Below the pieces are notes generated by a model. The model saw only the letters and a list, made by a program, of their open reading frames with translations. It was not told where the DNA came from and made no database searches. Of a stretch of 64,000 nt of DNA, positions 16,263 through 42,897 are shown one piece after another (position 1 is the first letter of the stretch; the number at the start of each line of letters is the position of its first letter). The position numbers and the translations under genes are program-made. The stretch spans positions 1 to 64,000 of the forward strand of contig NZ_BATR01000085.1 in assembly GCF_000739655.1 (NCBI RefSeq), given 5' to 3'. The stretch comes from Verrucomicrobium sp. BvORR106. Its GTDB lineage: Bacteria > Verrucomicrobiota > Verrucomicrobiia > Verrucomicrobiales > Verrucomicrobiaceae.

Positions 16263-16346
16263 GGGACCAGGGGATTGGGTTCTTAGTGCTTGGTGCTTAG
16301 TGCTTGGTTGGTCCTGGGAGAAAGGGTTGTGCTGGGTGATGTCGGA

Positions 16347-16423
16347 CTGAGCCGACTGAAGCAGGTACTCCAACGATGGAGTTGGAGCGGAGAGGGTTGG
16401 AGTACCGCCTTTAGGCGGCTCAG
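16347..16423. repeat. Paired palindromic repeat family B
   Basis: Facing copies of the GTTGGAGTACCGCC-TTTAGGCGG unit make a long hairpin (CTGAGCCG... with ...GGCGGCTCAG). It sits in the gap between the DUF4159 and DUF4175-like genes, which both read on the minus strand. Confidence 0.75.
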
Positions 16424-16493
16424 TGGATGTTTGAAGCTGAAGGTTCGAGGTGTCATGGCTGCATTCCACTTTTCACTTTTGACTCTTAACTTT

Positions 16494-26161: not shown

Positions 26162-29146
26162 TCAGGGCTGTTCCTCAGATTTGGTGTCTTTCGGCTCCCG
26201 CGCAGCGGGCTTGAAAGCACTGGCTTCCATCCAAAAATTCAATTCCGTGGGGTTCCAGTTACGCAGCCGTTCGTCGAGAGCGGCACTCATTTGAGTTTCA
26301 GGAATTACGTTGCCATCCTGCGCCGGGCCACCCAGACCGGGATATTCTGCCGAGGTCCAGTTCTGCCATCGGCGGTCAGCATCCAGATGCCAGTGGAAGA
26401 GGGTTTGATCCCGATGGTTTTGAGGCCAACGAAGCCAGGCGCAGCCCTGGATGCCCGGAGGAGAACCAAACTGGCCCTCGAATTTCTGAATCCACTCCAT
26501 TGTACGGGGGAGATTCAAGTTCGGTCTATCCAGATCAGTTGGGGAATAGGTCTCAACCTCGATCTGCCAGCCCTGCAGCAGTGGCAGTGGGCTGAGGTGA
26601 AGGGTGACGCCGATTTCCTGTCCCTCTTGTTGAAGGGTGCGAGTGCGAGTGACCTCTGCCAGGGAGGCCATGAGGGCTCCGTCAAGAGGCTTGCCCAAGG
26701 CGGACTGAAGTGGCGCCCACTTCTCCAACTCGGGTGACGAGCCAGTCACCTTGGTGACGCGGAGCGCCAAGGGTCGCCACTCTGGGGGGACTCCTGACTG
26801 GCGAAGCTCCTTTTGCAGAGCCAGTTTCTCCGCCAGCGAAAGCGTGCGCAGGTACTCAGGCCATCCACGCTCTGTCAGGCCTGGGATGGCCTGGAGGATT
26901 TCCTGGAGACGAGGGGCGGGCACGTCCCCGGCAGAAGGGAGAGGGGGCAGGGGCCTGCCTTCGAGAGAGGCCTTGCCGTGCTCAATCCACAAGGGCCAGA
27001 GATCTTCGGGATCGAAGCGATAGACCTCCGCGACAAAATTTCTCCGCCCATAGTCTTCGAAGAGATTCGCCAGCCAGTAGATTTGATCCGCGAGCGGACG
27101 TGAGCCTCCATTTTCATGGATCACCGGGGCGTTGCCGTCCTCCTGGATGATTTGGAGAAGAGCCTGACGTCGGGCATCGGTGAGTTCAAGCGGATACTTG
27201 ATCGTAGTCTGAATCAGATTCCACTTACGTGTGCCATCGCCTTTCTGGAGACGGGTGACTGCCTCCAGACCCAGGTCCGGGAGCAACTCCTTATCTTTCA
27301 CTGAGACGACCGCGGTGCGCAGCTCTTGCGAGAGTTTTAGGTCGGGTATTTTGCGATTGACATAGTCTTCGATCACCGAACCTATCGTCCGTCCTGCGGC
27401 CAGGGCCTCCAAGTTCTTCAGTCGATGCTGGAAGGGCTCAGGCAACTCTCCTGGTTTGACGTTGGGGTCTTTGTCCAGGGCGGGTGCAAGCTGTTCAAGC
27501 AGGGTATTGCGGAACTGCGCCAGCGCCGGTTGGGCGGCTGACTTTTGTCGCTGCACGAGCTCTGTGAAATGTTCAAAGTACTGGAGGGGATTTTCCAGCA
27601 TGAGATTGGCGACAGAATCAAGATCCGCATTGTTCCCATTCCGGATGATGCCTGACAAGGCGTGAGACTTTTGTTCGTCGTTGACAACCTTCAGATAGTA
27701 CTTGGCAACCTCCACTGGAGACTTGCCGTGGACATCTTTGGCAGTCTTCAGTGCCAAGTCACGCAGTTCCGCCAGATCCGTTGGTAGTTCCCCGCCTTCC
27801 TCTTCACGGAAGGGCACGATCGATTCGATGAAATCACGTGCCAGTTCGCCTCTCGTCTGCGGACGATAAAAGTGCGGCCATTTTTCATCGATTTCCTCTT
27901 CGGTCAGCTCCGGAGGATCGGTACTGAAGTCAAAGCCGGCCTCATACGGATCGTAAGAGGGAAGGCGCTGTCCCACCAAGACGTCATCCCCCAGGCCGGC
28001 GGCAATCACGCTGATCCAGTCCCAGTCTTTATCCAGGACGGCGCGCTGCCAGGTGGGCAGGGACTCCTTTTGAGTTTCGAGATCGCTGAAACCCTCGGGA
28101 TTGGCCGCCATTCGCACTCCGGCCAGCCATTGCTTACCCAGGTAGTCCATACCTTGCGGGTACTCTTCAAGTTCCTGCTCCGTGGCGCCTTGCTTCTTTG
28201 GAGGCTGGCCCTCTGTCACGGATGCCCACCACGCCTGTTGTTCAGGTGTGAGGAATGAAGCTTGAGCGAGGGCAGGCACCTGTGGCGAGGACAGGCGTTT
28301 TTGGACGGACTGTTGCAGTTTCTCTATGAGGGGGCGGACGGCCCACCCCCGGCTGTAGGTTTGCAAAAGTCGCTGGAGATCCGTATTCAGTGCCTGCCAG
28401 TCCCGGGTTCCGGAGAACTTGTCCAATGCCTTCTGGTACTGCTGACCCGCGAGAGTCTGAACGGCCAGATCAAGGAGCCGGTCTTGACGGGGCACGATGG
28501 CAAACAAGGCCTGTGCGGCCGCTTCTGCCTCGGCCCTGTATCCCCGTCGGTGATATTGGGCGGCCCGGAAGAAGAAGGAAACAATCGTATCCGAACTGTA
28601 CAGGAGGTTCTCTCTGACCGGCTTGGAGGTCGCGATGGCTTGCAGCCCTTTCGCCAGAGCTTGGGCGTCGGCTCTCTCATCTGCTGGCAGCAGGCTGATC
28701 CGCTTGGGTTCACCCCAGGAGTGCACCAGTTGGGTGCTGTTATGGATCTGCCAGCCATCCCACACCAGCAGCTCTGGTTTGCCGGGCTCTCCGGTTGTCT
28801 TGTCTGCCCAGCCCCGGGTGTAAGTCTTCTCCAACTCCGTGACGACGGCCCGAATCTTATCCTCGCCCGAATTGGGGAGGATCTGTCGGCTACCCACCCC
28901 CTCAATCTCCCGATACTCCCAACGGTCCACAGGCAGCTCCTGAAGCCCCAGCTCAAACAAGAGGTCAAACCCCTTCCCAAAATCCGGTGCCGCGGCGCAG
29001 GCCGTGCCGCCCATGTCAGGGATAAAGGGAACAATCCCCGGAACACAGAGGCAGGCAGAGACAGAGAACCATGCGATCATCATCATCCGCCGCGCAGGCC
29101 CATGGGCCTGCCTCAAGCGGCTGATGCTGTGATCGACAGAATTCAT
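26162..29146 (-). CDS. Giant secreted protein, paralog 1 of a three-member family
   Basis: This 994-aa protein has no recognised family. It has an N-terminal hydrophobic signal (MMMIAWFSVSACLCV) and a short shared opening: DFGKGFDLLFELGL, then a region of helical segments. Motifs shared with the paralogs at 29269 and 39346 are FFRAAQYHRRG near residue 195, DWDWISVIAAGLGDD near 376, DLWPLWIEHG near 715, EKLALQKEL, and a C-terminal block WQNWTSAEYPGLG then WNPTELNFWMEA. Most of the length is predicted helical, with many Leu/Glu/Lys residues. It sits 160 bp upstream of moxR on the same strand. It may be a secreted scaffold or structural protein; no function is supported. Confidence 0.8.
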   Translation of the reverse strand: MNSVDHSISRLRQAHGPARRMMMIAWFSVSACLCVPGIVPFIPDMGGTACAAAPDFGKGFDLLFELGLQELPVDRWEYREIEGVGSRQILPNSGEDKIRAVVTELEKTYTRGWADKTTGEPGKPELLVWDGWQIHNSTQLVHSWGEPKRISLLPADERADAQALAKGLQAIATSKPVRENLLYSSDTIVSFFFRAAQYHRRGYRAEAEAAAQALFAIVPRQDRLLDLAVQTLAGQQYQKALDKFSGTRDWQALNTDLQRLLQTYSRGWAVRPLIEKLQQSVQKRLSSPQVPALAQASFLTPEQQAWWASVTEGQPPKKQGATEQELEEYPQGMDYLGKQWLAGVRMAANPEGFSDLETQKESLPTWQRAVLDKDWDWISVIAAGLGDDVLVGQRLPSYDPYEAGFDFSTDPPELTEEEIDEKWPHFYRPQTRGELARDFIESIVPFREEEGGELPTDLAELRDLALKTAKDVHGKSPVEVAKYYLKVVNDEQKSHALSGIIRNGNNADLDSVANLMLENPLQYFEHFTELVQRQKSAAQPALAQFRNTLLEQLAPALDKDPNVKPGELPEPFQHRLKNLEALAAGRTIGSVIEDYVNRKIPDLKLSQELRTAVVSVKDKELLPDLGLEAVTRLQKGDGTRKWNLIQTTIKYPLELTDARRQALLQIIQEDGNAPVIHENGGSRPLADQIYWLANLFEDYGRRNFVAEVYRFDPEDLWPLWIEHGKASLEGRPLPPLPSAGDVPAPRLQEILQAIPGLTERGWPEYLRTLSLAEKLALQKELRQSGVPPEWRPLALRVTKVTGSSPELEKWAPLQSALGKPLDGALMASLAEVTRTRTLQQEGQEIGVTLHLSPLPLLQGWQIEVETYSPTDLDRPNLNLPRTMEWIQKFEGQFGSPPGIQGCAWLRWPQNHRDQTLFHWHLDADRRWQNWTSAEYPGLGGPAQDGNVIPETQMSAALDERLRNWNPTELNFWMEASAFKPAAREPKDTKSEEQP

Positions 29147-29177
29147 GGCAGTGGGTGACTTTCCCCAAGCGGGGCAG

Positions 29178-29215
29178 CGGAGAGGGTTGGAGTGCCGACC
29201 TTAGTCGGTATCAGT
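29178..29215. repeat. Family B single unit between two giant paralogs
   Basis: A diverged single copy (AGGGTTGGAGTGCCGACC-TTAGTCGG) lies in the 122-bp gap. Confidence 0.5.
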
Positions 29216-29268
29216 TCATCAAGAGGTTCAAAGGCTCGATGACTTACATGCCATCTGCCGCGGCGAGG

Positions 29269-32200
29269 TTATTCAGGTCTGACGTCTGGCGTTTTCTTCT
29301 CTGAAGTCTCCGCCGGAGGCGGATTCACCGCCCCGGCCTCGACCCAGAAGTACTCGGTGGCGGGGTTCCAGGTGTTGATGCGTTGTTCCAGGACCTTGGT
29401 GATTTCTGCTTCGGGTATGGTGTTGCCGTAGCCGGGGGCTCGGCCCAGTTGTTCATGCTCTTCTGAGGCCCAGTTCTGCCACTTGGAGTCCTTGTCCAGA
29501 TGCCAGGTAGCCATGGCTGCCTCACGCGGACCCTGCATCCAGCGCAGGGAAGCGTAGCCATTCACCACGACAGGCTCTGGACTGGCAGAGCGGAGTCCCT
29601 TCAGCCATTTGGCACCTTGGGAGACCAGGGAGCGGTCGTAGGCGTTTTCCTCGCCGTCTTCCACCGCATCGCTCAACTCCAGATTGAGGGCCAGCCCTTG
29701 GTAGAAGGGTTTCTGCTGAATGAAGCAACGAATGCCCTTGCCCTCGCCCAGCTTGCCCAGCTCTTTGCGGCAGGCCTCCGCCAGTTTCACGATGGAGTCT
29801 GGCGTGATCTTTTGCCCGGTGAAGGTCTTCACCGCGTCCAGTTCAGAGAGGGCATCTTGCTTGCCCGCCACTTCCACCACCACCAGCGCACGCTCGCGCC
29901 AGGCGGGCTTGAACTCCGCCTTCCGTATCTCCTCGCCCAGAGCGAGTTTTTCATCCAGGGTAAGGGACTGCAAGTACTTCGCCCAGTCGTTGTCTGGAGG
30001 GGCGTCCAGAGCCTGGAGCATGGCCTGACGGCGCTCAGAGGTCACACTGGCTGAAGATGGAGTGGGGGGCATGGCCGTGCCCTCCAGCGTGGCCCGACCC
30101 CGCGCAATCCACAGCGGCCAGAGCGCCTCAGCATCCACGACTCCCATGACCTTGCGCCGGATGGATTCCAGGTCGTCGTTGGCCAGATAGTCGGCCGTCC
30201 AGTACACATAGCGGGAGAGAGGATCCGTCGCACCGAAGTTGGACTTCACTGGCGCATCCGGGTCGTCCTGCAGGATCTTACGTAGGGCCTCCTTCCGGCC
30301 GTCGGTGATGCCCTGGCCAAAGTTCATACACTGGGCAAGCAGCCGCCATTTGCGGTCGCCATCGCCTTTGGGAAGGCGGGGCACGGCCGCGAGGATGGCA
30401 TCCACCGTCTGGTCACGGTTTTCCGCGGCGTTGCCCAGGGCACTGAGTTGCCGCGTGAGCTGGGGCGCACTGAGCTTGCCGGCCACATAGTCTTCCAGCA
30501 GCTCCACAGGGCCCCGACCAGAGGTCAGGCCTTCGAGCATCGTCACCTGTTCTTTGAGATAGGCTGGCAGTTCACCCTTGGCCACTTCCGGATCGCTGCC
30601 GCCCTGGCGCACCTGTTCATCCAGCAGGGCCTTGCGGTATTTCTCCAAGAAAGGCTTGGCGGCGCCCTTTTGCTTCCGAATCAGGGTGGTTGCCTGCTCG
30701 AAGCGCTGGCCTGGCTCTTCCAGAATGAGGGATTCCACCTGCTTGAGGTCAGCCTCTCCGCCCGCATGGATGAGGGCAGTCATGGCCTGGCTCTTCTGTT
30801 CTCCGCTGCCGCCCTTCAGGTAGAACTTGGCGATCTCCAGTGAGGATTTGCCCTTCAGCGCCTTGGCAAGATCCAGCGCCACCTGCCGGAGTTCATCCGG
30901 GTCCGTGGGGAGTTCATCGCCCTCCGCATCGTTCACGGGCAGCACCACCTGCAGGAACTCACGGGCCAGATCGTTGCGAGCAGGTGGGCGTTGCAGGTTT
31001 TCCCACAGTTCCGCGAGCTCTTCCTCGGTTAGCTCTGGCGAGTCCGATTCGAAATCGAAGCTTCTGGAGGAACGGTCGTACCCACGCCCCGGCATCGCGG
31101 TCAGCGTCTCATCGCCCAGCCCGGCGGCCATGACGGTGATCCAGTCCCAGTCATTCTCCAGCGGCGCGCGCATCCAGGCAGGGGCGGATGCGGTCTGCTC
31201 CTTCCACATCGCCAGGCTGTCCGGATCCGCCTGCATCTTCATGCCGTACAGCCAGATCTGGGCGAAGCTGGACAGCTCCAGGTTGCCCATGCTTTCATCG
31301 ACGCCCAGCTCTTCCTCTGCGTCTTCCGGTTCGCTCTCTTCCTTGTCCTCCTCGGTGGCGGCGTTTTGTGCCGTTGCCTGCGGGGCACCCTGGGTGGCCG
31401 CACCGGCGGCTCCCTTGCGCTTGGGCGGGACGTCTAGCTGCTGCCACCATGCCTGCTGTTCCGGAGAAAGGTTGGCGGCATGGATCAGCGGTGGAGCCTG
31501 ACCCTGCGGCACGGCAAGCCGTTGCTGCACGAGCTTGTGCAGGCGCTCCACGACAGGGCGCTCCGTCCAGCCACGCGTGTAGGTGACGAGGAGCTTGGCC
31601 AGTGCAGCTTCGAGTTCCTTCCAGTCGCGGTTGCGTCGGAAGCTCTGCATGGCCTCCGCGTAGCGGTTGCCCGCCAGTTTTTCGACCGCCAGGTCTACTA
31701 AGCGGTCTTTGCGCTCCACGAGGCTGAACAGCGCCTGCGCCGCCGCCGCCGCTTCCTCCTTGTGTCCGCGCCGATGGTATTGCGCAGCGCGGAAGAGATA
31801 GGTGACGATGAGATCCGGAGAGTAGAAGAGCGTACGCTTGGTGTTGGCGTCTCCATTGGCCAGCTCCTGGATGCCCAGCGCCAACGCTTTGGCGTCTGCC
31901 TTCTCGTCCGCCGCCTTCTCTTCCTTGGTCGGCGCGAATTGGCTCCACTGCACCCCCGCCTGACGCATGAGACGGGAGGCGGCTTGGTCGTTGGTCGTGC
32001 CCTGAATCCGCCATCCGTCGGTGAGGATGCGTCGATACGTGAGATTTGGCTGGGCTGAATCCGGGACGGTCGGCTTTTCCACCCAGCCGTGGGTCAGCGT
32101 CTTCTGAAGTGCCTCAATCTCCGCTGAGGATTTGCCGCTGCGGGATCTCCCGCCGAACGGGTTCTCCATTTCAGAACCTCGGAGGCTTTCAAGCGCGAGA

Positions 32201-32424
32201 TACTGCCAGTCGGGTCCAGAGACATCTGGCAGGCCCAGGTCAAAGAGGATCTCCAGTCCCTTTCCGTAGTCCACGTCCGCCGCCTGCACCCGGGGGGCAG
32301 GCAGAGTCACGGTGAAAAACAGCGGCAGCACCACAGGTGCCGGCCCCACCAGCGCAGCGGTGAAAGCAAGATTTCGCCACAAGGGCATGGTGCGTCCGTA
32401 GGACGAGGGGTGGGCCGAACTCAT
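29269..32424 (-). CDS. Giant secreted protein, paralog 2
   Basis: The 1051-aa protein has an N-terminal signal (LAFTAALVGPAPVVLPLFFTV), then VDYGKGLEILFDLGLPDVSGPDW, which matches paralogs 1 and 3. Shared motifs recur in the same order: FRAAQYHRRG near 213, DWDWITVMAAGLGDETL near 425, ALWPLWIARGRATLEG near 771, LDEKLALGEEI, DSKWQNWASEEHEQLG and WNPATEYFWVEA near the C-terminus. A Glu/Asp/Ala-rich low-complexity region lies at about 330-380. It is the first gene of the minus-strand block ending at 11213. No domain, catalytic motif or known function is recognised. Confidence 0.8.
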   Translation of the reverse strand: MSSAHPSSYGRTMPLWRNLAFTAALVGPAPVVLPLFFTVTLPAPRVQAADVDYGKGLEILFDLGLPDVSGPDWQYLALESLRGSEMENPFGGRSRSGKSSAEIEALQKTLTHGWVEKPTVPDSAQPNLTYRRILTDGWRIQGTTNDQAASRLMRQAGVQWSQFAPTKEEKAADEKADAKALALGIQELANGDANTKRTLFYSPDLIVTYLFRAAQYHRRGHKEEAAAAAQALFSLVERKDRLVDLAVEKLAGNRYAEAMQSFRRNRDWKELEAALAKLLVTYTRGWTERPVVERLHKLVQQRLAVPQGQAPPLIHAANLSPEQQAWWQQLDVPPKRKGAAGAATQGAPQATAQNAATEEDKEESEPEDAEEELGVDESMGNLELSSFAQIWLYGMKMQADPDSLAMWKEQTASAPAWMRAPLENDWDWITVMAAGLGDETLTAMPGRGYDRSSRSFDFESDSPELTEEELAELWENLQRPPARNDLAREFLQVVLPVNDAEGDELPTDPDELRQVALDLAKALKGKSSLEIAKFYLKGGSGEQKSQAMTALIHAGGEADLKQVESLILEEPGQRFEQATTLIRKQKGAAKPFLEKYRKALLDEQVRQGGSDPEVAKGELPAYLKEQVTMLEGLTSGRGPVELLEDYVAGKLSAPQLTRQLSALGNAAENRDQTVDAILAAVPRLPKGDGDRKWRLLAQCMNFGQGITDGRKEALRKILQDDPDAPVKSNFGATDPLSRYVYWTADYLANDDLESIRRKVMGVVDAEALWPLWIARGRATLEGTAMPPTPSSASVTSERRQAMLQALDAPPDNDWAKYLQSLTLDEKLALGEEIRKAEFKPAWRERALVVVEVAGKQDALSELDAVKTFTGQKITPDSIVKLAEACRKELGKLGEGKGIRCFIQQKPFYQGLALNLELSDAVEDGEENAYDRSLVSQGAKWLKGLRSASPEPVVVNGYASLRWMQGPREAAMATWHLDKDSKWQNWASEEHEQLGRAPGYGNTIPEAEITKVLEQRINTWNPATEYFWVEAGAVNPPPAETSEKKTPDVRPE

Positions 32425-32635
32425 TGGGGGTGATGAAGATTCGTTTTTCCGCTGACTGGTTTAACCCAGATGCCGTTCAAAAGGGAAGGGAAAATATTCC
32501 CGGTTGGTGCTTATTGGTGATGAAAAGTTTATCCATGAGGGTGAGGGTGATGGACCAGGGGGCACGAAAGGAGTGCTGGCTTTGTTGCAATGTCGTCAGG
32601 GAAATAGCGGCGAGGCCGATGACCTCCCTTCTGCG

Positions 32636-32880
32636 AACGAACTGAGGGCTGAAAGCCCGGTGTGATGGCAGCCTTGGGCAACGCCCAAGGTTCGTTAGGC
32701 ATTTAAGAGATTGAGGGCTGTAGGCCCGACGTCATTCAGGGATGCTCGTCGTGGGCAGGCTTGATGAGGCCGGGCCTTCAGCCCTCATGGGTTGTTTGGT
32801 CATCTATTCCTTGGGCCGTTGCCCAAGGCTGCTATTAAGCCGGACCTTCGGCCCTTCTGAAGCGGCATTCCTGCCACCGG
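32636..32880. repeat. Dispersed repeat family E cluster
   Basis: Several units of the type GAGGGCTGAAAGCCCGG/CCGGGCCTTCAGCCCTC alternate with TTGGGCAACGCCCAAGG palindromes. The intergenic span 32425-33061 holds no gene I can support. Confidence 0.65.
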
Positions 32881-33061
32881 GATGGCGGATGCGCCATCGC
32901 TACTCCGGGGCTTGCCAAGGCAAAACGGCACACTATCCTTTTCACTGAAGGCATTGGGTTTGATTGAACATCCCCGCCCGCCTGTGGGGATCATGCCGCG
33001 GAGAAAGGTGAGCCCAGCCTAATGGCGAAGGTGTCATGTATGGAACAGCTTGGAGCAGGCA

Positions 33062-33376
33062 ATGAATGCTGATATATTGGACGCAGCGACGAATAACCAG
33101 AAAATGGAAATGAATCACCACGACCGGGCCAATGCCATCATCGAGGAGGTTCTCAGTCTCGCGCTCAATCGTCACCTGCATCTCTTGGAAGATGCCGGAT
33201 ACCTCAATCAGCGGGCAATTGCCAAAGGACTGCAGGGGGGAATTCAGGGGAAACCTGAAGGACCGCTGCATTTGAAGAACGCCTTGATTGATGAAATCTG
33301 CCTGAGATTGGGGCCAGCGGTTGCTGACTATTTGGCGTATCCCCGTGAAGACCTCTGGCCGATGTCCGGTGAATGA
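33062..33376 (+). CDS. Small soluble protein of unknown function
   Basis: About 104 aa from the ATG at 33062; the TTG at 33050 is in frame. The sequence is helical and includes NHHDRANAIIEEVLSLALNRHLHLLEDAGYL, then LHLKNALIDEICLRLGPAVADYLAYP. It has no signal or membrane segment and no recognised family. The composition is plausible for a real protein, and it stands alone in a repeat-rich region. Expression is not supported by any motif. Confidence 0.45.
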   Translation: MNADILDAATNNQKMEMNHHDRANAIIEEVLSLALNRHLHLLEDAGYLNQRAIAKGLQGGIQGKPEGPLHLKNALIDEICLRLGPAVADYLAYPREDLWPMSGE

Positions 33377-33680
33377 TCTTGTGTGCACTCGTTAAGGAGC
33401 CCGGGTACGATGCTGAAGAACGTGATGAGTGGCCAGAGCGTCCGCCACTTCTTCCGCCAAACCCTCCGCTCCTGAGCCGACGGGGACCGTCGAACTACTC
33501 CGCAGTGTCGCTTCGGGCGTAGTCCGGACGTGCGGTCCGGCTCAGTCGCCGCAGGGACGTACGTTCTATCCACCGATCCGATCCCCATCTTCCGCAGCCA
33601 GCACTCCCGCACTTCCTGGCTCCGCGGATGTAGCTACCAAGAAACCAAGTCAGTCTGGCCGGATTCAGTCCGTCCGAAGT

Positions 33681-33725
33681 TGATCCCTGTAGGGGATCTA
33701 TGGCACAGTCCAACGTTGACGAATT
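33681..33725. repeat. Mosaic repeat family H unit
   Basis: GATCCCTGTAGGGGATC followed by CCAACGTTG matches the module found at about 34.29-34.36, 34.49-34.54, 38.19 and 42.69-42.75 kb. It ends immediately before the gene remnant. Confidence 0.6.
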
Positions 33726-33838
33726 TCCAGCTCTCGTTTTTGGTCATGGTGTGTACCGCCATGTTGATATCTTGGATGGCTAGCCTATTCGGGGTGAAAT
33801 CGCCCGTGGAGGAAACACTCAAAGCACTGCCCCTATGA
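33720..33838 (+). pseudogene. 5'-truncated remnant of the 35667-36119 membrane protein family
   Basis: The last ~37 codons in this frame encode a helix, LSFLVMVCTAMLISWMASLFG. It matches VWFLVMSCMALLVSVMGSLFG near the C-terminus of the intact protein at 35667-36119. The upstream part of that protein is missing. A family H repeat sits exactly at the break. The remnant ends with a TGA overlapping the ATG of the next small gene. Confidence 0.55.
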
Positions 33839-34017
33839 TTGCGCCGCTCAGTCTTGTAGAGCTTTCTCTCGTGACGGCCGCACTTGGCCTCGCTGCCGTA
33901 GTCGTGACGATTCTCCTGAAACTCGCCGACTCGCGGCGTGTGGGATTCCAGCTTCCGATCACGGCATTGGTTCTTCTAGGGATGATTGTTATGGGTGTTT
34001 GGATTGGATTTCGATGA
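33835..34017 (+). CDS. 60-aa membrane mini-protein
   Basis: Two hydrophobic segments (LVTAALGLAAVVVTILLKLA and ITALVLLGMIVMGVWIGF) are separated by a short basic turn (DSRRV). No family is recognised. Its ATG overlaps the TGA of the upstream remnant (ATGA), typical of translational coupling. This suggests that it was co-transcribed with the intact form of the remnant before truncation. It is short, so it may be spurious. Confidence 0.5.
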   Translation: MIAPLSLVELSLVTAALGLAAVVVTILLKLADSRRVGFQLPITALVLLGMIVMGVWIGFR

Positions 34018-34019
34018 AG

Positions 34020-34560
34020 TTGGCGCTCCACGGAGAAACTTCACCTACCGGGAAGTTATTGGCTGCCAAGGAACCTGGGGTGGTGAAATGCGGTCTGACA
34101 GTTCTTAAAGCAGTCTGTGCCTGGGAAGCTGGGGAGCGCACGCATCCCTGCGTGCTGTTCGCGGCATCTTGCCGCGAACGTCGGGCAGACATGACATCGC
34201 ATCCGCCGGACTTGGAGGCGTTGACGGCGGTGGGGAGAAAGTGGGTGCTGTCGGCCTTACCACCTGATCAATCCTCTGCGAAGGCCCCCAACGTTGACTC
34301 GCTCAGGGCTCGTCCAACGTTGGGCTGTGCTAGATATCCCCTTCAGGGATAAACTGCGAACTGATACGGCACCTCAAGGCGGTTCCTTGGCGGCCACCCC
34401 GACCACGCGCATCTGGGGAGGCTGCCGAAGGAAACGACGCTTCTTCCCTGCTCAGGCGAAGTTCTTCCTCGAAGAGGATGGGGCTACAAGCCCAACGTTG
34501 ACGAGCTTCCAGCGAGTCTACGTTGGGTATCACCCCGCCTCGCGGTCAGGTGTGGAGGCC
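34020..34560. repeat. Mosaic composite repeat (families C, H and linked blocks)
   Basis: In order: CCGGGAAGTTATTGGCTGCC, a TGAAATGCGGTCTGAC block, a block with GGGAGCGCACGCATCCCTGCG, GTGCTGTCGGCCTTACCACC, a CCCAACGTTGACTCG palindrome, GGGATATC/GATCCC-type elements, and AAGTTCTTCCTCGAAGAGG near 34458. Each block recurs at 37.7-38.4 and 42.5-43.1 kb. No coding sequence is supported within it. Confidence 0.7.
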
Positions 34561-34682
34561 AATCTCATTTTCTTTCAAAGCATGTCTTTCTAAGATACCC
34601 ATCACGTCCACTTCCATCGCCACACACTCAGCCTCGCTTGCCTTTCGCGATTTTTGGGCATCCTTTCCACACCGGCCCCCCA

Positions 34683-35372
34683 ATGACTCCCGCCTGTTAC
34701 AAGCTCTTTGCTTATGCTGTCGACAAGGTGACTCCCCGTGACGTGTGGGATTTCAGTCCGAATGATCCAGGGTTTCCGGGATACGTCCGAGAGTTCACCG
34801 CGATACTCAAATCTCGAAAACTGCCCAAGGACGCAGATTTCGACATCACGGAGACGATTGGATTGACCATGTGGGGCGACGCGGAAACCGAAAAGGATCC
34901 TGATCGCTTCCGCCGGTTCCGCGTGTTCACAAACTCCGTGGCAGTCGCGCTGTGTGCCGGACCAGATGGTGTCCCTCTCACGATGGCCGCCAACTATCCA
35001 TGTATCCGTCTCCTGGAAGATGCCCATGCCTTGGGGGACGAGCAGTTGCTAAGATTGCTCTATCCCGTCTTCGGAGATTTGTTCGCCCGCCTTGAGACGG
35101 ATGGGTGGTCCAACCGTGAGGCTCCGCTCCTTTTATTGGGGCAGCTCATACTGGCATTAATGGGATATGGCAGCCCCAACGATGTGCCCACATTGGCGGC
35201 CACGCTGGTGAAGCTGGGCTCCGTTGCGAACGATCACGTGCCAGCCGACTTCCTCTGGAACTGCACCAACTTCGACCAACTCCACGCTGAGTGGAAACGA
35301 TTCGTTGGAATCGCGTTTCCGGAGAACTCTCCCATCGAAGATGTCGCCTTGCTGCGCGATACGCTATTGTAG
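34683..35372 (+). CDS. Soluble protein of unknown function
   Basis: The 229-aa protein (ATG at 34683; frame open from 34638) begins MTPACYKLFAYAVDKVTPRDVWDF. It has no signal and no transmembrane segment. A mix of helices and strands includes GLTMWGDAETEKDPDRFRRFRVFTNS, ALGDEQLLRLLYPVFGDLF, and ILALMGYGSPNDVPTLAATLVKLGS. No family is recognised. It could be an immunity-type or lineage-specific protein, but there is no supporting neighbour. The tract to 35666 shows no gene. Confidence 0.5.
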   Translation: MTPACYKLFAYAVDKVTPRDVWDFSPNDPGFPGYVREFTAILKSRKLPKDADFDITETIGLTMWGDAETEKDPDRFRRFRVFTNSVAVALCAGPDGVPLTMAANYPCIRLLEDAHALGDEQLLRLLYPVFGDLFARLETDGWSNREAPLLLLGQLILALMGYGSPNDVPTLAATLVKLGSVANDHVPADFLWNCTNFDQLHAEWKRFVGIAFPENSPIEDVALLRDTLL

Positions 35373-35666
35373 TAGCCTCATCTTTCAAATACGCCGCCAT
35401 GGAAGAAGAGCTAAACAAGAATCCGCCGCTCGGTCGCAGCCTGATGCCGAATGGCAACTTCGTGTTCAAGGTCTCTCCTCGATAGGCGATTGCGATACGA
35501 CAGGGCGAGCGCAGCTCGCAACGGTGGCCAACGACCCGGCGGGCGCTCGCGCAAGCCTTCCTTTCCTGTGTACATTTTTCACTGGCTTTTGGCCCGCCGA
35601 CCTTTGTAAGGTAGGTTCATCGCGAAAATTGAGGAAACTCAATTCACTTCCCTAACCCTTCTGCCC
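35373..35666. other. Non-coding gap without recognised features
   Basis: Nothing I can support lies in this stretch: no RNA gene, terminator, or repeat of the other families is visible. Confidence 0.4.
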
Positions 35667-36119
35667 ATGAAGCACACGCGGTTCGCCCTTTCTGACTGGC
35701 CCATGTGGGGGGGATTGATCATGATGATTCTCCTATTCTCCGTGCAGATCATTGGGATGGCTGCGGGGATGATCGCTCTCGACCCCCGGGAGGATTACTT
35801 GGATCCGCCTAGGATGAAAGAAGCGGCGGCGGAGTACCAGCAGTACCTTCTCGCGCTGAGGGATGCGGAGGGGAACTTGCGCCGAATCGGCGAACTGCCT
35901 ACCTATGAAGACCTGGCCCGGAAATATGAGGAGCTTCAAGGCTACTCTTGGCAGGTGAATGGTGCCCGGCTTGTTGTCGTGAAACACGTGGTCGGTGAGG
36001 CGCCAGAGGTCTGGTTTCTGGTCATGTCTTGCATGGCGCTTCTTGTATCCGTAATGGGAAGTCTGTTCGGGGCACAGCTTCTCCATTCATTTTCTCCCAA
36101 GGCCGTGTTTCGCCGGTGA
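35667..36119 (+). CDS. Two-helix membrane protein of unknown function
   Basis: The 150-aa protein has a first hydrophobic segment, LIMMILLFSVQIIGMAAGMI (residues about 18-38). A charged extracytoplasmic middle contains KEAAAEYQQYLLALRDAEGNLRRI. A second helix (VWFLVMSCMALLVSVMGSLFG) ends near the C-terminus. The last helix resembles the remnant at 33720-33838, suggesting a small family at this locus. No known domain is recognised. Confidence 0.6.
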   Translation: MKHTRFALSDWPMWGGLIMMILLFSVQIIGMAAGMIALDPREDYLDPPRMKEAAAEYQQYLLALRDAEGNLRRIGELPTYEDLARKYEELQGYSWQVNGARLVVVKHVVGEAPEVWFLVMSCMALLVSVMGSLFGAQLLHSFSPKAVFRR

Positions 36120-36165
36120 TCTGGGCGCAGCAGGGCACGATGATCGCAGGGGGCGAGGTGAGATG

Positions 36166-36197
36166 GGCCCGGAGGATTCTTGAAGCCTCTCCGGGCC
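36166..36197. terminator. Hairpin between convergent genes, possible bidirectional terminator
   Basis: The 9-bp arms 36166-36174 (GGCCCGGAG) and 36189-36197 (CTCCGGGCC) lie between convergent stops at 36119 and 36214. No clear U-tract follows on either strand, so this is low confidence. Confidence 0.4.
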
Positions 36198-36213
36198 ATC
36201 CTATTGGGATCGG

Positions 36214-36672
36214 TCACGCCTTGCCCGGAGGCTGCACAATCGGCTCCACAAAGAAGTACTGCTTGTGTCCGCCGGAGGCGAGCTCCTTGGCGCGTTCCTC
36301 CGCCGCGCGGCGGGTCTCGAAATCGCCCACATGGAAGCGTCCTCCGTTGTCGTCCTCGCGATAGAGAGAGTGAGGGCTTTTCGCCACAGCAGGATCCGTG
36401 GCGGCCTTGTACAGAGCCGCAGCAAAGGCGCTGATCGGCTTCTCCGGCACTGCCGCCCACCAGCCGAAGTCGTCGTTGCCCCACTTCACGCCCAGACCTT
36501 TCACGATGGTGCGCAGCAACTCGACCTCAGAGGCTTCCTTGCCCGCATCCAGCAGGGCGAAGTTCGCGGTCGTTCCCTGGGCCGTCGGGCCCTGTACAGG
36601 GAGGAGGTTGACCCGGCATCCGGGGCCGCCCGGTGTTCCTTTGCGATGATATGGACTCTGTTGCGTGCTCAT
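36214..36672 (-). CDS. Small soluble protein of unknown function
   Basis: The 152-aa protein begins MSTQQSPYHRKGTPGG, with no signal peptide. The middle part contains GWWAAVPEKPISAFAAALYKA. The C-terminal half contains GGRFHVGDFETRRAAEERAKELASGG. This loosely resembles a SPOR-like phasing of strand-helix (F.VGDF.TR.AAEE.A..L), but the family is not established. The neighbouring gene at 36766 is on the same strand, 93 bp away. Confidence 0.5.
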   Translation of the reverse strand: MSTQQSPYHRKGTPGGPGCRVNLLPVQGPTAQGTTANFALLDAGKEASEVELLRTIVKGLGVKWGNDDFGWWAAVPEKPISAFAAALYKAATDPAVAKSPHSLYREDDNGGRFHVGDFETRRAAEERAKELASGGHKQYFFVEPIVQPPGKA

Positions 36673-36765
36673 GTACGAGGGGAAGAAGTAGGCAGGAGCC
36701 GGGGGAAGTAAAGGGGGGAGGTGCTAAGTGCCTAGTGACTGGAGCTTGGTCTGGGCGGCGCGGGG

Positions 36766-37443
36766 CTACCTGAAGATCTTGGCTGCGGTGAGCAAGGTGA
36801 AGACCAGCAGCATCAAGCCTGAAATGACCGTTAGCAGCAGGAACACAGGCCGGACTTCCTCGAAACTGCGGCCTGGTTTCAGCAACTGTGCCTGAAATCC
36901 CGGGAACCGGAGCGCTGCTGCCGAGATGCCAAAGAGGAAGGCCACCGCAGCAAGCATGAGCGGACCAGGAAATGCGGTGATGGCGTCCGCTTGCAAAAAC
37001 TGAAAAATGAAAAGCGCGTTCCAGATGGCCACCGCGACCAGGATAGGAACGATGCGCAACGGAAATCCCCGCGATTTGCCGACGGAGGACAATTCGCTGG
37101 CTTTTCCAGCAGGAATGAAGCCCGCATTGGCGATGGCCTTGAGCGTGGAGGCCGGGTTGCACCAGAAGATGATTTTCTCGGGAGCCTCGGTGGAGGTATG
37201 TCGGATGCGAATCCCGTCACCGAGAACCGGAATGCCTCCGTAGGGTTCAATGGCAACAACCTGCTCCGGGGAGAATCGATGTCGGCCCGTCTCAAGCAGA
37301 CCGAACATCGTGGTGGCCACGCTGAGGTGTGCCGCATCGCATTCCAGCGTGGCAAGTGGCCAGGTGTAGTTGACGAATCCAATGCGTGCGCCGCCCCGCA
37401 CGTGACAGGGGGTGGTGGGAGATGGAGTTGAACTCGTGTTCAT
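36766..37443 (-). CDS. Membrane protein with cytoplasmic N-terminal domain, unknown function
   Basis: The 225-aa protein has a soluble N-terminal half with a beta-rich pattern (ARIGFVNYTWPLATLECDAAHLSVATTMFGLLE; IPVLGDGIRIRHT). Three to four hydrophobic segments follow (IVPILVAVAIWNALFIFQFL, GPLMLAAVAFLFGISAAAL, VFLLLTVISGLMLLVFTLL). No family is recognised. It is the first of a two-gene same-strand pair with 36214-36672. Confidence 0.5.
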   Translation of the reverse strand: MNTSSTPSPTTPCHVRGGARIGFVNYTWPLATLECDAAHLSVATTMFGLLETGRHRFSPEQVVAIEPYGGIPVLGDGIRIRHTSTEAPEKIIFWCNPASTLKAIANAGFIPAGKASELSSVGKSRGFPLRIVPILVAVAIWNALFIFQFLQADAITAFPGPLMLAAVAFLFGISAAALRFPGFQAQLLKPGRSFEEVRPVFLLLTVISGLMLLVFTLLTAAKIFR

Positions 37444-37529
37444 CTAGGGTGTCCTATTTTGCGGTAGGTTGTGGAAAAAGGCCAGTAACAAGGTCGCCCC
37501 TTATCGCGGTGAGTGGCGCCCTCCCACGA

Positions 37530-37640
37530 AGAGCCTTCCGTCCGCTCCAGCGTTTCCAAAGTCGCGAAGCGTCTTGGAGTGCTGGTGACTCGACACCGCT
37601 TTGGCGGCCCTTGTGACAATCTCGAACCGTAGCAGTTCAG
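37530..37640. repeat. Repeat family I, copy 1
   Basis: GTCGCGAAGCGTCTTGGAGTGCTGGTG-type sequence, then CGACACCGCTTTGGCGG and a CGTAGCA..TCAGCA end. It matches 39060-39165 almost base for base over about 100 bp. Confidence 0.75.
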
Positions 37641-37714
37641 CAACGTTGATTCTCAGCGCGATTTGGATGTCCCTCCGGCAGCGTGGATCGCGGGGCCGGA
37701 GTGGTGGGGCATCA

Positions 37715-38090
37715 CGGGAAAACCTCGCATGCCGGGAAGTTAGTGCCTGCCAAGGAACTTGGGTAGAGAGGCACAGACTCACAGGCCTTAAATGGCCTGT
37801 GCCCGGGAAGCTTGGGGAGCGCACGCATCCTGCGTGCTGTTTGCGGCATCTTGCCGCGAATGTCAGTCAGCGCATGACAACTGGTCCAACCGACGTGGAG
37901 GTGTTGATGGCAGTGGGGAGGAAGCCGATGCTGTCGGCCTTCCCACCTGATCATCCTCTGCGGAGATACCCAGGGTCTCCGTCCACTTCGTGGCCTATGC
38001 CCCTGGGCTGGGCTCGGTGGGCCTTTCAGGCCCAAATCCTATGAGGGGACTTACAGAGAGGGCTGAGCCAGAGTCGGTTCCTTGCCGCCT
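37715..38090. repeat. Mosaic composite repeat, left copy of an inverted pair
   Basis: It includes the CCGGGAAGTTAGTGCCTGCC block, GGGAGCGCACGCATCCTGCG and GCTGTTTGCGGCATC. From about 37873 a tract (GTCCAACCGACGTGG, GGTCTCCGTCCACTTCGTGG, GTCGGTTCCTTG) recurs in inverted orientation at about 42898-43118. Confidence 0.75.
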
Positions 38091-38109
38091 ATTCCAATCG
38101 CGTGCGATT

Positions 38110-38430
38110 TGGGATCGCCGCCAAGGAATCAACACCGTCCACACACTCAGTCGAAGTTCTTCCTCGAAGAGGATGCGGCCACAAGCCCAATGTTGGCGAG
38201 CTTCCAGCGAGTCTGCGTTGGGTGCCGTCCAACGATGATGCTCAGGTGGGAAGGCCGACAGCATCCGCTTTTCCTCCCACCACCTTCAACGCCTCCATGT
38301 CACTCGAATGCGATGTCGCACAAATGTTTGGTTGCGCCTCACGAGGCCACACGCTGCCTGACGTTCCCGGCAAGATGCCGGAAACAGCACGCAAGATGCG
38401 TGCGCTCCCCGAGCGCCCCACTTGCCGCGT
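38110..38430. repeat. Mosaic composite repeat, reversed fragments
   Basis: AAGTTCTTCCTCGAAGAGG (38153) and GAGCTTCCAGCGAGTCTGCG match 34458-34535. From about 38240 the sequence is the reverse complement of blocks at 34.2 and 37.9 kb (GGAAGGCCGACAGCA). GCAAGATGCCGGAAACAGC is a reversed family C unit. It runs up to the 3' end of the DUF2199 gene. Confidence 0.65.
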
Positions 38431-38431
38431 C

Positions 38432-38929
38432 CTATTCCGCATGCAAAAGCTGGTGAGCGAGCTCATGCCAGCGTGCAATCGTGATGCCCTGATGCTGGTC
38501 GATCGCAAGCGGATGATCCATGGGCTCCACCGTAAAGAGCGGCGTCTGTCCCGGTGGTCGTGATTGGACCGAGAGCTTGAGATGAAGCGTGCTGGGATAC
38601 ACGTGAATAGGGCTGCACAACCAGCCAAAGTACGGCGGGTCAAGCCCCCGATCCGGCTCCTCCCAGCGATCACCCATGTGTAGAAAGCTCTTCTCACTGA
38701 GGGACGACCAGACCGAGAAAGACAGGGGCTCATCGTGCCCATGTATAGTAACCTCGATGTGCCCTCGAACAAAGAACTGAGATTCATCCACCACGCACTG
38801 GTCTGGTGTCAGTTCCACCCGCGACTCGAACTCGTCCTCCGGCACCAGGGCTCGCCAGGGGGCTTCAATGCCAAAGCAGACGGGCAGATCGTCGTGAGTC
38901 CTTCCACAGTCCGGGCATTGCCAAGTCAT
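38432..38929 (-). CDS. DUF2199 domain protein
   Basis: The 165-aa protein begins MTWQCPDCGRTHDDLPVCFG, an N-terminal zinc-ribbon-like CPDCG with a His/Asp context. The conserved DUF2199 order follows: FFVRGHIEVTIHG, VWSSLSEKSFLHMG, GWLCSPIHVYPSTLHLKL and MDHPLAIDQHQGITIARWHEL. The family is widespread and of unknown function. It has no signal peptide. Only about 13 bp separate the family C repeat end from its stop codon. No operon partner is visible. Confidence 0.8.
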   Translation of the reverse strand: MTWQCPDCGRTHDDLPVCFGIEAPWRALVPEDEFESRVELTPDQCVVDESQFFVRGHIEVTIHGHDEPLSFSVWSSLSEKSFLHMGDRWEEPDRGLDPPYFGWLCSPIHVYPSTLHLKLSVQSRPPGQTPLFTVEPMDHPLAIDQHQGITIARWHELAHQLLHAE

Positions 38930-39059
38930 GGATCACAAACGGTGCTCGCGCTCTTATCGGCAAGTGAATTTGGGGTGCCAAGAGTCTTTCACCACAGAGC
39001 GTAGCAGAGACGCACCGCGCTGCGCCAGCGTTTCGTGCGCCGACTGCCAATCGAGACCT

Positions 39060-39165
39060 GACCTCCAACAGCTCCAGCGCATCCAATGTCGCGAAGCGTC
39101 TTGGAGTGCTGGTGGCTCGACACCGCTTTGGCGGCTTTGATGACAAACTCGAGCCGTAGCACCTC
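39060..39165. repeat. Repeat family I, copy 2
   Basis: It shares with 37530-37640 the TGTCGCGAAGCGTCTTGGAG stretch and the CGACACCGCTTTGGCGG/CGTAGCACCTCAGCA end. No gene is supported between 38930 and 39345. Confidence 0.75.
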
Positions 39166-39345
39166 AGCAGGGGTTGTGCACGAATGCTCTCATGCCGACG
39201 CGCCGCCTTTGCCAGACGCAGGTAATCCGTTGAATGACCTTGTAGTCCTCTGCACGAGTGCACCACGCCTGGTGATCATCCGTCAAAACGCTGCCTCGAA
39301 GGCTCTTTTGGAGCCCCAAAGGTGAAAGTTTGCTGGGTGAGGAAA

Positions 39346-42300
39346 CTAATCTTCAACCTCTCGAACAACACCTCCGGGTCTCCTGGCTCCCGTCTCAAAC
39401 CAGATCATATCAGACGGCTTTTCCCAGGTGAGGCTCCGGACTTCGAGTGCGGGAAGGAGATTATCCGCTGGGACGTTGGTGTCTCCAATGGGGGAGGTGC
39501 CGAAAGTGGGGTGCTCCTCTTGGGGCCAGCGTTGCCAGGGCTGGCCTCTTTCCTGATACCAGTCGGCACTTTGATACGATTCAGAAGCGATCTTCCACAC
39601 CATCCATCCATAACCAAGGAGTTCAGGTGAAAGAGCCGGTGTCTGAGGAAGTTGTTTCATCCAATGGCCCGCGTAGGTGAAGGTGGTCCTGCCGTAGTCC
39701 GTGCTGTGGCTGGTAGAGCCGGTGGTGATGAAGATGCGCAGGCCCTGGCGCAGGGGCATGGGCTTCACAGTGATCCAGAGGCCGTCGCCCTCGCCTTCCC
39801 TCAGCTCAGGCAACTGGGTGCGGCAGATCTCTCCGAGCTTGGCTAAGCTGGAGGCGCTGGCGCTCTGGCCAATGAAGGCGGGCAATCCCACGCGTGCGGC
39901 CAGATCTGGGGGATAGGAGTCGATCCTCCTAAAGCGCAAGGAGGCTTCAATCCCGATCGGAGTGAACGGTACCGTGGCGAGATCCTCGCCCAGTGCGAGT
40001 TTCTCATCGAGCGAGAGGGCCTGCACGAACTCAGACCATTCGCCCTTTTCCAGGCGCTGTGGAATCGTCTCCATCATCTCGCGACGACGGTCGGTGGTGA
40101 CGTTGGTCACGGAGGGGAGCGGTGGCAGTGGCGTGCCCTCCAGAATGGCGCGTCCAAAAGCGACCCAAACAGGCCAGATATCAGAGGTATCCAGATCGCG
40201 GAAAAGGGGATGGATCTTTTTGGGCACTCCTTCTTTGTCGTCGGGGAGTTGCAAAGTCAGCCAGGACACGACGTGCGAGAGCGGCACGACGGTGTAGTCA
40301 TGGGTGACGACCAGCGTATCAGGATCTTCCCTCAGGATCTGCCGCAGCTTGTCTTTGCGCGATGGAGTCAGTTTCCTCCCGAACCTTGTGCATAGCGTAA
40401 GCAGGCCCATTTTGATTTCGCCCTGCCCCTTGGGCATGCGGAGGATGGCATCCAGAATGGGGTCCATGAAACCTTCACGATGAGAATCATCGGTCAACAG
40501 CGCTTGAGTCTGTGCAGAGAGCGTATCAAACGCGAGCTCTCCCCTGACGTAGGCGGCAAGAACGTCTGTGGGGCCGCGACCGGCGGCAAGATGCTCCAGA
40601 GTCGCGAGGTTCAGAGCCCAAGGGGAAGGCAGTTTGTGATCTTCCGATGGGGAATCCCCGGAAGCCTCAATCTCAAAGGCCGTGAAGATCGCCCTCCGAT
40701 ACCGCTGAATGAAGGGGCGACTGGCCTTTCCACGAGTGCGGACGAGGTGGGAGGCTTCGTCAAAGCGGATGCTGGATTGTTCGATGAGGAAGTCTTCCGC
40801 AAGTTTTAGGTCCTCGGCGGCACCGGTGTTGATCAGGGCCATGAGGGCCTTGCCTTTTTGAAACTCACTGCCGGATGTTAGGTAATAACGGGCTGCTGCC
40901 GAGGGGGTGCTGTTCTTTAGCGCGCGACCGGCTTTCAAGGCCAGCTCACGCAGTTCCGCGGGATCAGCGGGCAAATCCTTCTCACTCCAGGGCAGCGTGT
41001 GTGAAAGAAAATCCCGGGCAATCTCTCCCCGCGTGCGTGGCCGGTACATGTATCGCCAGCTTCTCTCCAGATCCTGCAAATCCATGCCCGGCGGGGTTTG
41101 GTCAAAGTCGAAGGCGGTGGGGCTCATCACATGGCTGTTTGCGCTGATGACAGGGATGAGTGTCTCATCGTCCACCGCGGCAGCAGCAATGGTCATCCAG
41201 TCCCAGTCTTGGTGAAGGATAGTCTGCGCCCAGACCGGCCCCATGGCGCTGAATTTCCGCCAGAGCTCGAGGTTCGCTGGATCAACTCGCATTTTGAAGT
41301 CGAAGAGCCATGTCGGGCCGACTTGGTCGAGTCTGGCCTTGGTGAAGATGGCGGCGATGTCGGGATCATTTCCTTTGGTGGTCCCGGATGATGGCGCAGA
41401 GGCGTTCTCTCCGAGAGGGACATCCGCCACCTGCTGCCACCAGGCCCGTTGTTCTGGAGTGAGCAGGTCGGCGTGGGCCAGTGGAGGAGCGTTCGGGGTG
41501 GTGACGCGTTGTGTGACCATAGCGTAGAGCTTTTCCACCAGAGGACGTTGCTCCCAGCCTCGAGTGTAGGTGCGCAGGGCATGAGCGAGGCTTGCGTGCA
41601 GAGCCCGCCAGTCCCCTGTGGCACCGAACTGATTCATGGTGTGGTCATAGTGAGTCTCGGCCAATCGCTGCACAGCGATATCCATCAGGCGCTCCTGGAG
41701 CGGGACGATTTTCAGCAGCGCCTGGACTGCGGCGGTCGCTTCGTCTCGAAAGCCCCGTCGATGATGCTGGGCGGCGCGGAAGAAGCAGGTGGCGATGAAA
41801 TCCCTGTCCCCCGCGGCACCCATCCAGAGGGTGTTGTCGTTTTCATCTTTGCTCTTGGCCACGCGCCGCAGGCACTGGACGAGGAGCAGGGCGTCCGTCT
41901 TCTCGTCCGCAGCACCTTCGCCTGGACGGATATCTTTAGGGGGCGGGACGGACCATGGCTGGGGAGTTGAGATGTCGTTGGGCGGGGCGGTGGATTGGAG
42001 CTGCCAGCCGTCGATCAACACCCTGGTGCCGGTTGGAAAGTGAGGTTCCGGAAGCGGAGCTGAACCGGCGGTGCCTGTGGGAGTCGCAACCGTGTTGGAA
42101 GGGGACGTTTGCACCCACCCGTGTTTGAAAACGTCACCGAGCCCGATGCGAACGTCGAACGGATCGTTCTCGGAAAAGAGATCAAGGTATTGGGGTCTCT
42201 GCAATGCGGGCCCGCTCAACGGGACATACCGCCAGTCCGGGCCAGAGACGTCTGGCAGTCCGAGTTCGAAGAGAATATCGAATCCCTTGGCAAAGTCCGG

Positions 42301-42513
42301 TGACTCGGCATGGGCGGAGTTGAGGGAACTGCTCACCAGCCACAACGGTGTGATGCACCAGAGGAAGGACAGGATGTTGATGGGGTAGCCGAAGAGCGAC
42401 CTCAATGCCCGGCATCGCACGATCCAGGAAAAGACGAAGGCGAGGCAAAGCAGCAAGAGCTGGATGCCTCCATTGAGCAGGTCGAGAACGGTCGCTTGCC
42501 AGTTGGGGTCCAT
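39346..42513 (-). CDS. Giant secreted or membrane-anchored protein, paralog 3
   Basis: The 1055-aa protein has one or two N-terminal hydrophobic segments (GIQLLLLCLAFVFSWIV, INILSFLWCITPLWLVSSS). The shared opening SPDFAKGFDILFELGLPDVSGPDWRYV follows. It then repeats the family order: FFRAAQHHRRG, DWDWMTIAAAAVDDETLIP, DIWPVWVAFGRAILEG, LDEKLALGEDL, and a Trp-rich C-terminal block with WQRWPQEEHPTFG, then WEKPSDMIWFETGA. It is separated from the other two copies by 7 kb of accessory DNA and flanked by inverted repeat tracts, so it may have moved. Function unknown. Confidence 0.75.
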   Translation of the reverse strand: MDPNWQATVLDLLNGGIQLLLLCLAFVFSWIVRCRALRSLFGYPINILSFLWCITPLWLVSSSLNSAHAESPDFAKGFDILFELGLPDVSGPDWRYVPLSGPALQRPQYLDLFSENDPFDVRIGLGDVFKHGWVQTSPSNTVATPTGTAGSAPLPEPHFPTGTRVLIDGWQLQSTAPPNDISTPQPWSVPPPKDIRPGEGAADEKTDALLLVQCLRRVAKSKDENDNTLWMGAAGDRDFIATCFFRAAQHHRRGFRDEATAAVQALLKIVPLQERLMDIAVQRLAETHYDHTMNQFGATGDWRALHASLAHALRTYTRGWEQRPLVEKLYAMVTQRVTTPNAPPLAHADLLTPEQRAWWQQVADVPLGENASAPSSGTTKGNDPDIAAIFTKARLDQVGPTWLFDFKMRVDPANLELWRKFSAMGPVWAQTILHQDWDWMTIAAAAVDDETLIPVISANSHVMSPTAFDFDQTPPGMDLQDLERSWRYMYRPRTRGEIARDFLSHTLPWSEKDLPADPAELRELALKAGRALKNSTPSAAARYYLTSGSEFQKGKALMALINTGAAEDLKLAEDFLIEQSSIRFDEASHLVRTRGKASRPFIQRYRRAIFTAFEIEASGDSPSEDHKLPSPWALNLATLEHLAAGRGPTDVLAAYVRGELAFDTLSAQTQALLTDDSHREGFMDPILDAILRMPKGQGEIKMGLLTLCTRFGRKLTPSRKDKLRQILREDPDTLVVTHDYTVVPLSHVVSWLTLQLPDDKEGVPKKIHPLFRDLDTSDIWPVWVAFGRAILEGTPLPPLPSVTNVTTDRRREMMETIPQRLEKGEWSEFVQALSLDEKLALGEDLATVPFTPIGIEASLRFRRIDSYPPDLAARVGLPAFIGQSASASSLAKLGEICRTQLPELREGEGDGLWITVKPMPLRQGLRIFITTGSTSHSTDYGRTTFTYAGHWMKQLPQTPALSPELLGYGWMVWKIASESYQSADWYQERGQPWQRWPQEEHPTFGTSPIGDTNVPADNLLPALEVRSLTWEKPSDMIWFETGARRPGGVVREVED

Positions 42514-42559: not shown

Positions 42560-42800
42560 CGATTCAGTCAGCGCCTGGCAAGGAACCTGGGGTGGCGAAA
42601 TGCGGTCTGACGTGGAGGTGTTGATGGTGGTGGGGGAGAAAGCAGATGCTGTCGGCCTTCCCACCTGATCCTCCTCTGCGGAGGTACCCAACGTTGACTC
42701 GCTTAGAGCTCGTCAACATTGGGCTGTGGTAGAGATCCCATTCTGGGATCTGCTTCGAACTGAGGAGGGGCTTCAGCCGCCTTCAGTGTGCCTTCGGACC
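42560..42800. repeat. Mosaic composite repeat fragments
   Basis: CTGGCAAGGAACCTGGGGTGG and AAATGCGGTCTGACGTGGAGG, then GCTGTCGGCCTTCCCACCTG, ACCCAACGTTGACTCGC and a GGGATC palindrome. All match blocks at 34.0-34.4 and 37.7-38.0 kb. Confidence 0.7.
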
Positions 42801-42897
42801 CATGGGATGATCGATCATTTCCTCTGCCTGAGCGCTCACATCACCGGTGGTAGCTGTCGACGTGAGAAGAAAACCAACCGCGCGCGTTTTGGGGTGG

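Follow-up and report, generated by a model that had tools for sequence, protein, structure and literature searches.

Three paralogous giants of Verrucomicrobium sp. BvORR106 belong to an unnamed, predicted exported protein family typically encoded directly upstream of moxR across Verrucomicrobiota

Three very large proteins are encoded within 16 kb of the window, the 64,000-nucleotide stretch of Verrucomicrobium sp. BvORR106 analyzed here, and they raise the question of what family they form and what such proteins do beside a gene for a MoxR ATPase. The three genes are:

Giant 1 (G1), 26162..29146, minus strand: 994 aa, predicted exported; the copy at the conserved site directly upstream of moxR
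Giant 2 (G2), 29269..32424, minus strand: 1051 aa, predicted exported; a paralogue in tandem with G1, same strand and 122 nt upstream
Giant 3 (G3), 39346..42513, minus strand: 1055 aa, predicted exported; a paralogue set apart from the other two, where repeats are abundant

The coordinates, minus-strand orientation and lengths first claimed for these open reading frames were confirmed, and the ordered motifs that had been noticed in them extend into a full-length alignment (A1) at 32-40% identity (40% and 32% to G1), with invariant columns at both ends and in between. When G2 is used as the query against its own genome, the other two giants are recovered at E values of 3.4e-177 and 3.3e-141, far past the level of short chance motifs, and these three are the only copies found by the search of this 8.69 Mb Verrucomicrobium-like genome. 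Verrucomicrobium sp. BvORR034 carries orthologues of G1, G2 and G3 in an identical arrangement, with 83, 76 and 77% identity, respectively. Against this species, dN/dS is 0.26, 0.20 and 0.41 for the giants, compared with 0.03-0.06 for the MoxR, DUF58 and BatA proteins of the neighboring operon (MoxR 0.04, DUF58 0.03). The orthologues and ratios together indicate that the giants are real genes under selection, constrained but fast evolving. An in-frame TAG in the BvORR034 copy of G3 was considered as a possible interruption and rejected, as it is that gene's own stop codon.

By hydropathy, each giant has a single N-terminal hydrophobic segment followed by an AXA-like site (ACA-A, VQA-A and AHA-E in the three proteins), which lies directly before the D(F/Y)xKG(F/L) opening. 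Because a putative signal peptide precedes it, the opening that was first noticed in these proteins would be the start of the mature protein. The giants are thus predicted to carry an N-terminal signal peptide, placing the mature protein outside the cytoplasm. Of the earlier suggestion that they are exported or membrane anchored, the first half agrees with this prediction, while anchoring after cleavage does not, since no other membrane-like segment is present.

The proteins had been described as having no nameable family, and this description stands for the libraries searched: the giants gave only chance-level matches in Pfam, NCBIfam, PHROGs, PADLOC and PDB sequences, and a scan of 48 family members with family libraries returned no credible match. 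HEAT/ARM or TPR helical-repeat models in Pfam matched 0/48 members at E 0.01. A VbhA match to one giant copy (0.019) was dismissed as below the cut-off. Even a profile built from the three giants finds only weak matches in relatives, located beside their best MoxR orthologues. Typical between-species identity is 19% for the giant, against 65% for MoxR, 55% for DUF58, 33% for BatA and 35% for VWA; at this identity the family is hidden from ordinary searches by its fast change, and is recoverable only through its conserved neighbor MoxR. Conservation is highest in the first 250 residues of the mature protein, which carry the signatures A..H..G...EAN and DW.AY..L..L...PRGW.

The AlphaFold2 model of G2 has a pLDDT of 60.7 and a pTM of 0.43, built from an alignment of five sequences from the window and BvORR034 only, which yields weaker models than the 48-sequence family could give; residues 480-860 form confident helix pairs, with the remainder less so. 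ARM/HEAT-type chains rank first among the structural neighbors of this core; their Z reaches at most 9.4, a value within chance for helical repeats. Modeled alone, the C-terminal 199 residues reach a pTM of 0.68 and adopt an alpha/beta arrangement, for which no match above Z 3.2 was found in the PDB, although such an absence is no proof of a new fold. The giant is predicted to combine a helical-repeat core with an alpha/beta domain at its C-terminus.

The genes that follow G1, all on the same strand, are:

25009..26001, minus strand: MoxR AAA+ ATPase (AAA_3 5.8e-63, AAA_lid_2 1.5e-18)
23853..24740, minus strand: DUF58 protein with a VWA-type MIDAS motif DSSAS (VWA_2 3.9e-11) and no membrane segment
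21739..23856, minus strand: BatA-like membrane protein with a VWA domain (BatA PF07584 5.3e-14, VWA_2 8.7e-9, MIDAS DRSAS)
19418..21655, minus strand: second VWA-type membrane protein, with two membrane-like segments at the N-terminus (MIDAS DRSAS; weak VWA_2 match)
16494..19376, minus strand: DUF4175-like membrane protein
15615..16469, minus strand: DUF4159 protein (2.1e-27)
11213..15631, minus strand: 1472-aa protein that combines HEAT repeats and a glutaredoxin-like region (CxxC) with six membrane-like segments at the C-terminus

Two of the giants had been placed next to moxR; only the 994-aa gene adjoins it, and the neighbor of the 1051-aa gene is the 994-aa one. The membrane-like segments of the BatA-like protein are two at the N-terminus and one at the C-terminus. 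The ATPase is of the AAA_3 type, and a VWA partner with a DxSxS motif occurs three times (DUF58, BatA-like and second VWA), so that by its MoxR and VWA features the locus is, as judged from sequence, a MoxR-VWA system. The DUF58/BatA neighborhood is what suggests that this MoxR belongs to the MoxR Proper (MRP) subfamily. The MoxR ATPase domain is matched 15 times across the genome, indicating many MoxR clusters, and giants occur at this one only. On the opposite strand beside the operon, at 9838-10836, lies a gene for an exported-looking 332-aa protein with no Pfam match.

Among the systems closest to this locus, the Rhizobium leguminosarum operon RL3499-RL3502 encodes partners of DUF58 and VWA type. 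MoxR proteins act as chaperone-like ATPases with VWA cofactors, and this MRP operon is stated to matter for membrane integrity and cell morphology (PMC3893208). The likeness lies in a MoxR with DUF58- and VWA-type partners here and an MRP-type MoxR operon there, while the difference lies in the exported operon-head protein of ~1000 aa, of which the available text on RL3499-RL3502 reports none. With the Bat (Bacteroides aerotolerance) operon, the locus shares the grouping of MoxR, DUF58 and a BatA-domain VWA membrane protein, but here the partners are DUF4175 and DUF4159 proteins, and the operon opens with the repeat-like protein, which is giant and predicted to be exported. Pfam matched neither BatD nor TPR in the ten window genes scanned, and thus the locus is not a strict Bat operon. 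In the Bat clusters of Bacteroides, Leptospira and Borrelia, helical-repeat TPR proteins have been proposed as scaffolds of the Bat complex (PMC3557215, PMC5700661); Borrelia BB0173 was shown to reside in the inner membrane and to have a periplasmic VWA domain (PMC5700661), and bat deletion in Leptospira produced no oxidative phenotype (PMC3557215). The Bifidobacterium PFNA cluster (pkb2-fn3-aaa-atp-duf58-tgm) also places a large secreted, fast-diverging protein directly upstream of a MoxR-family ATPase (PMC8430577, PMC6803598). However, PFNA has FN3 domains and kinase and transglutaminase partners, whereas the giants show no sign of homology to FN3 in Pfam scans, and Pfam detects no FN3 protein, Pkb2 kinase or transglutaminase in the operon genes scanned. 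We regard the resemblance as a parallel in layout that implies no kinship. Among the matches listed in a literature search, DUF4175 or DUF4159 was not found together with MoxR.

How general the position of the giant is was assessed by searching 387 order-level and 387 phylum-level genomes with MoxR as the only query; 49 loci were chosen in this way and their surrounding genes read. Outside an Akkermansia-like genus (g12), a giant homologue of 925-1145 aa, in some cases complete and in others cut by a contig end, lies directly upstream of moxR and on the same strand at 42/42 readable loci; in three loci (L041, L071, L083) the upstream sequence ends at moxR. Four more loci (L029-L032), found via the giant, show the same arrangement. 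The operon order is giant-moxR-DUF58-BatA/VWA-VWA-DUF4175-DUF4159, followed in many relatives by the HEAT/CxxC/multi-membrane protein, the gene for which ends the operon in many, not all, of those whose contig extends there. The gap between giant and MoxR has a median of 24 nt (quartiles -4 and 39, n=45), and the gaps of 160 nt (G1-moxR) and 122 nt (G2-G1) in the window are wider than usual for relatives. Most species with the family have a single copy, which heads the moxR-VWA operon. The giants are, on this sequence evidence, one paralogous, unnamed family, phylum-wide and with a fixed operon address. In the g12 loci (L066-L069), from genomes of 2-3 Mb, the giant is upstream of moxR in 0/4. 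These loci keep moxR-DUF58-BatA-VWA-DUF4175-DUF4159, with an FKBP-type protein upstream in one, and the giant is therefore dispensable for the operon core.

In the 387 phylum genomes, 18 have both the MoxR orthologue and a giant, six have MoxR only, 13 a giant only and 350 neither (Fisher p 5.7e-18, with genomes not independent and phylogeny uncorrected). Four of the six MoxR-only genomes are g12 and the other two are cut by contig ends. The giant-only cases are orphan homologues away from any moxR and without a consistent context; neighbors read by eye revealed no second conserved context around them. Their existence implies that some members act either independently of the operon or together with one located elsewhere. 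In two distant genomes, orphan giants form tandem pairs away from moxR (L095 4045-11000, L096 4131-11400), a second and third case of local giant duplication.

A tree of the family, made by a quick method and with some long branches, joins G1, G2 and G3 and their BvORR034 orthologues in one clade, next to the single operon copies of the genomes G014 and G074, which points to a local triplication predating the split of BvORR106 and BvORR034. Distances among the giants parallel those among the operon proteins (Spearman 0.42-0.71, exceeding 500 permutations), and species relatedness alone accounts for part of this correlation. After control for the other proteins, only the link between BatA and the giant remains (partial 0.41, 5-95% 0.11-0.55, n=25), weak evidence for BatA as a physical partner. 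The CxxC multi-membrane protein of the operon had also prompted the idea of a disulfide client; mature giants have a median of three cysteines, and some lack cysteine altogether, so the idea was rejected as a general role.

The complete genome G003, of the same genus, is colinear with the window at its flanks (~84% DNA identity) and lacks 9.5-35.2 kb of it, about 26 kb that hold the operon, G1, G2 and one more gene; the 332-aa protein is absent there too. The G3 stretch (39.3-43.2 kb) is separately gone, with ~0.7 kb in its place, and genes at 36.2-37.6 kb, between the two missing stretches, are retained. As the sister genus G014 has the operon and one giant, operon loss in G003 is favored over gain elsewhere. 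Whether by loss or gain, the detached G3 goes together with the operon, and G3 could have arisen later.

What, then, does the giant do? As a first reading, the operon context argues for a periplasmic or envelope partner of the MoxR-VWA proteins. MoxR and the cytosolic DUF58 protein would act from the cell interior on the membrane-anchored BatA-like and second VWA proteins, whose MIDAS domains would face the periplasm. The giant would be a periplasmic or outer scaffold or client, held or matured by the VWA domains, in a system that would maintain envelope integrity, as RL3499 does in Rhizobium. In this lineage it would have been triplicated to give G1 at the home position, G2 in tandem and G3 detached. 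We consider it probable that the giants are an unnamed family of large, exported proteins that belong at the head of the Verrucomicrobiota MoxR-VWA operon and serve there as scaffold or client for envelope upkeep. Most likely, we infer, the giant is an exported helical-repeat scaffold or client that periplasmic VWA proteins would bind. Its conserved place before moxR suggests that a functional component of a bacterial cell-envelope machine has been overlooked. More tentatively, Verrucomicrobiota may carry a distinct type of MoxR-VWA machine with a dedicated ~1000-residue exported subunit of a new family (helical-repeat core, unmatched C-terminal alpha/beta domain), held by VWA proteins across the periplasm, a subunit that lineages swap, lose or triplicate to retune the machine. 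The role of MoxR-VWA operons of the DUF58/BatA/DUF4175/DUF4159 type is a long-standing question, and a giant in the same place across a phylum offers a way to approach the machine from its substrate or scaffold side.

The earlier note took the expansion as a pointer to a surface structure, which we do not favor over the alternatives, the three copies being a local lineage event where most species have one. A related account makes the giants surface-exposed or released adhesin-like recognition proteins, matured by the MoxR system in the way proposed for the secreted FN3 protein of PFNA, and diversifying against hosts, prey or competitors. Their predicted export, fast evolution and local expansion would suit it, as would the PFNA parallel, in which a fast-diverging large secreted fn3 immediately precedes duf58 and the MoxR-family ATPase (PMC8430577, PMC6803598). 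We nonetheless judge it unlikely: Pfam finds an adhesion, FN3, Ig, lectin or sorting domain in 0/48 family members, the giants lack an outer-membrane anchor, their average dN/dS (<0.5) indicates purifying selection, and a loosely constrained helical repeat would also explain the fast change.

It is less probable still that the giants are ordinary helical-repeat proteins that vertical descent has left beside the operon with no joint function. Against this stand a position conserved in many families of the phylum at spacings of a few nt, the joint absence of G3 and the operon in G003, and the co-occurrence given above, uncorrected for phylogeny as it is; orphan copies elsewhere, the persistence of the g12 operon without a giant and the low sequence conservation of the giants weigh on its side. 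MoxR-vWA pairs are also found in predicted conflict systems (PMC7159879), and the giant might then be the sensor or effector of a defense locus, for which its rapid evolution and patchy presence, and a Pfam bpMoxR match to the window MoxR at 1.7e-10, could be cited. This seems to us very improbable, given that AAA_3 is a far better match, that the giants have no PADLOC match, and that a signal peptide and BatA/DUF4175/DUF4159 membrane partners suit the envelope role better.

The repeat-rich setting described for the third giant was borne out, with interspersed repeats around G3. Intergenic copies lie at window positions 34021-34534, 37537-38419, 39064-39169, 42566-42725 and 42889-43118, and also near 9411-9498; they are about 40-106 nt long, 80-93% alike and in both orientations, with related copies at the matching place in G003. 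The G003 junction falls at 12800-12920 of locus L100, corresponding to window positions 35196 and 9498, and one window edge is beside a repeat copy. At 44153-46495, the window also carries a TonB-dependent receptor-like gene that is absent from the otherwise colinear G003 region.
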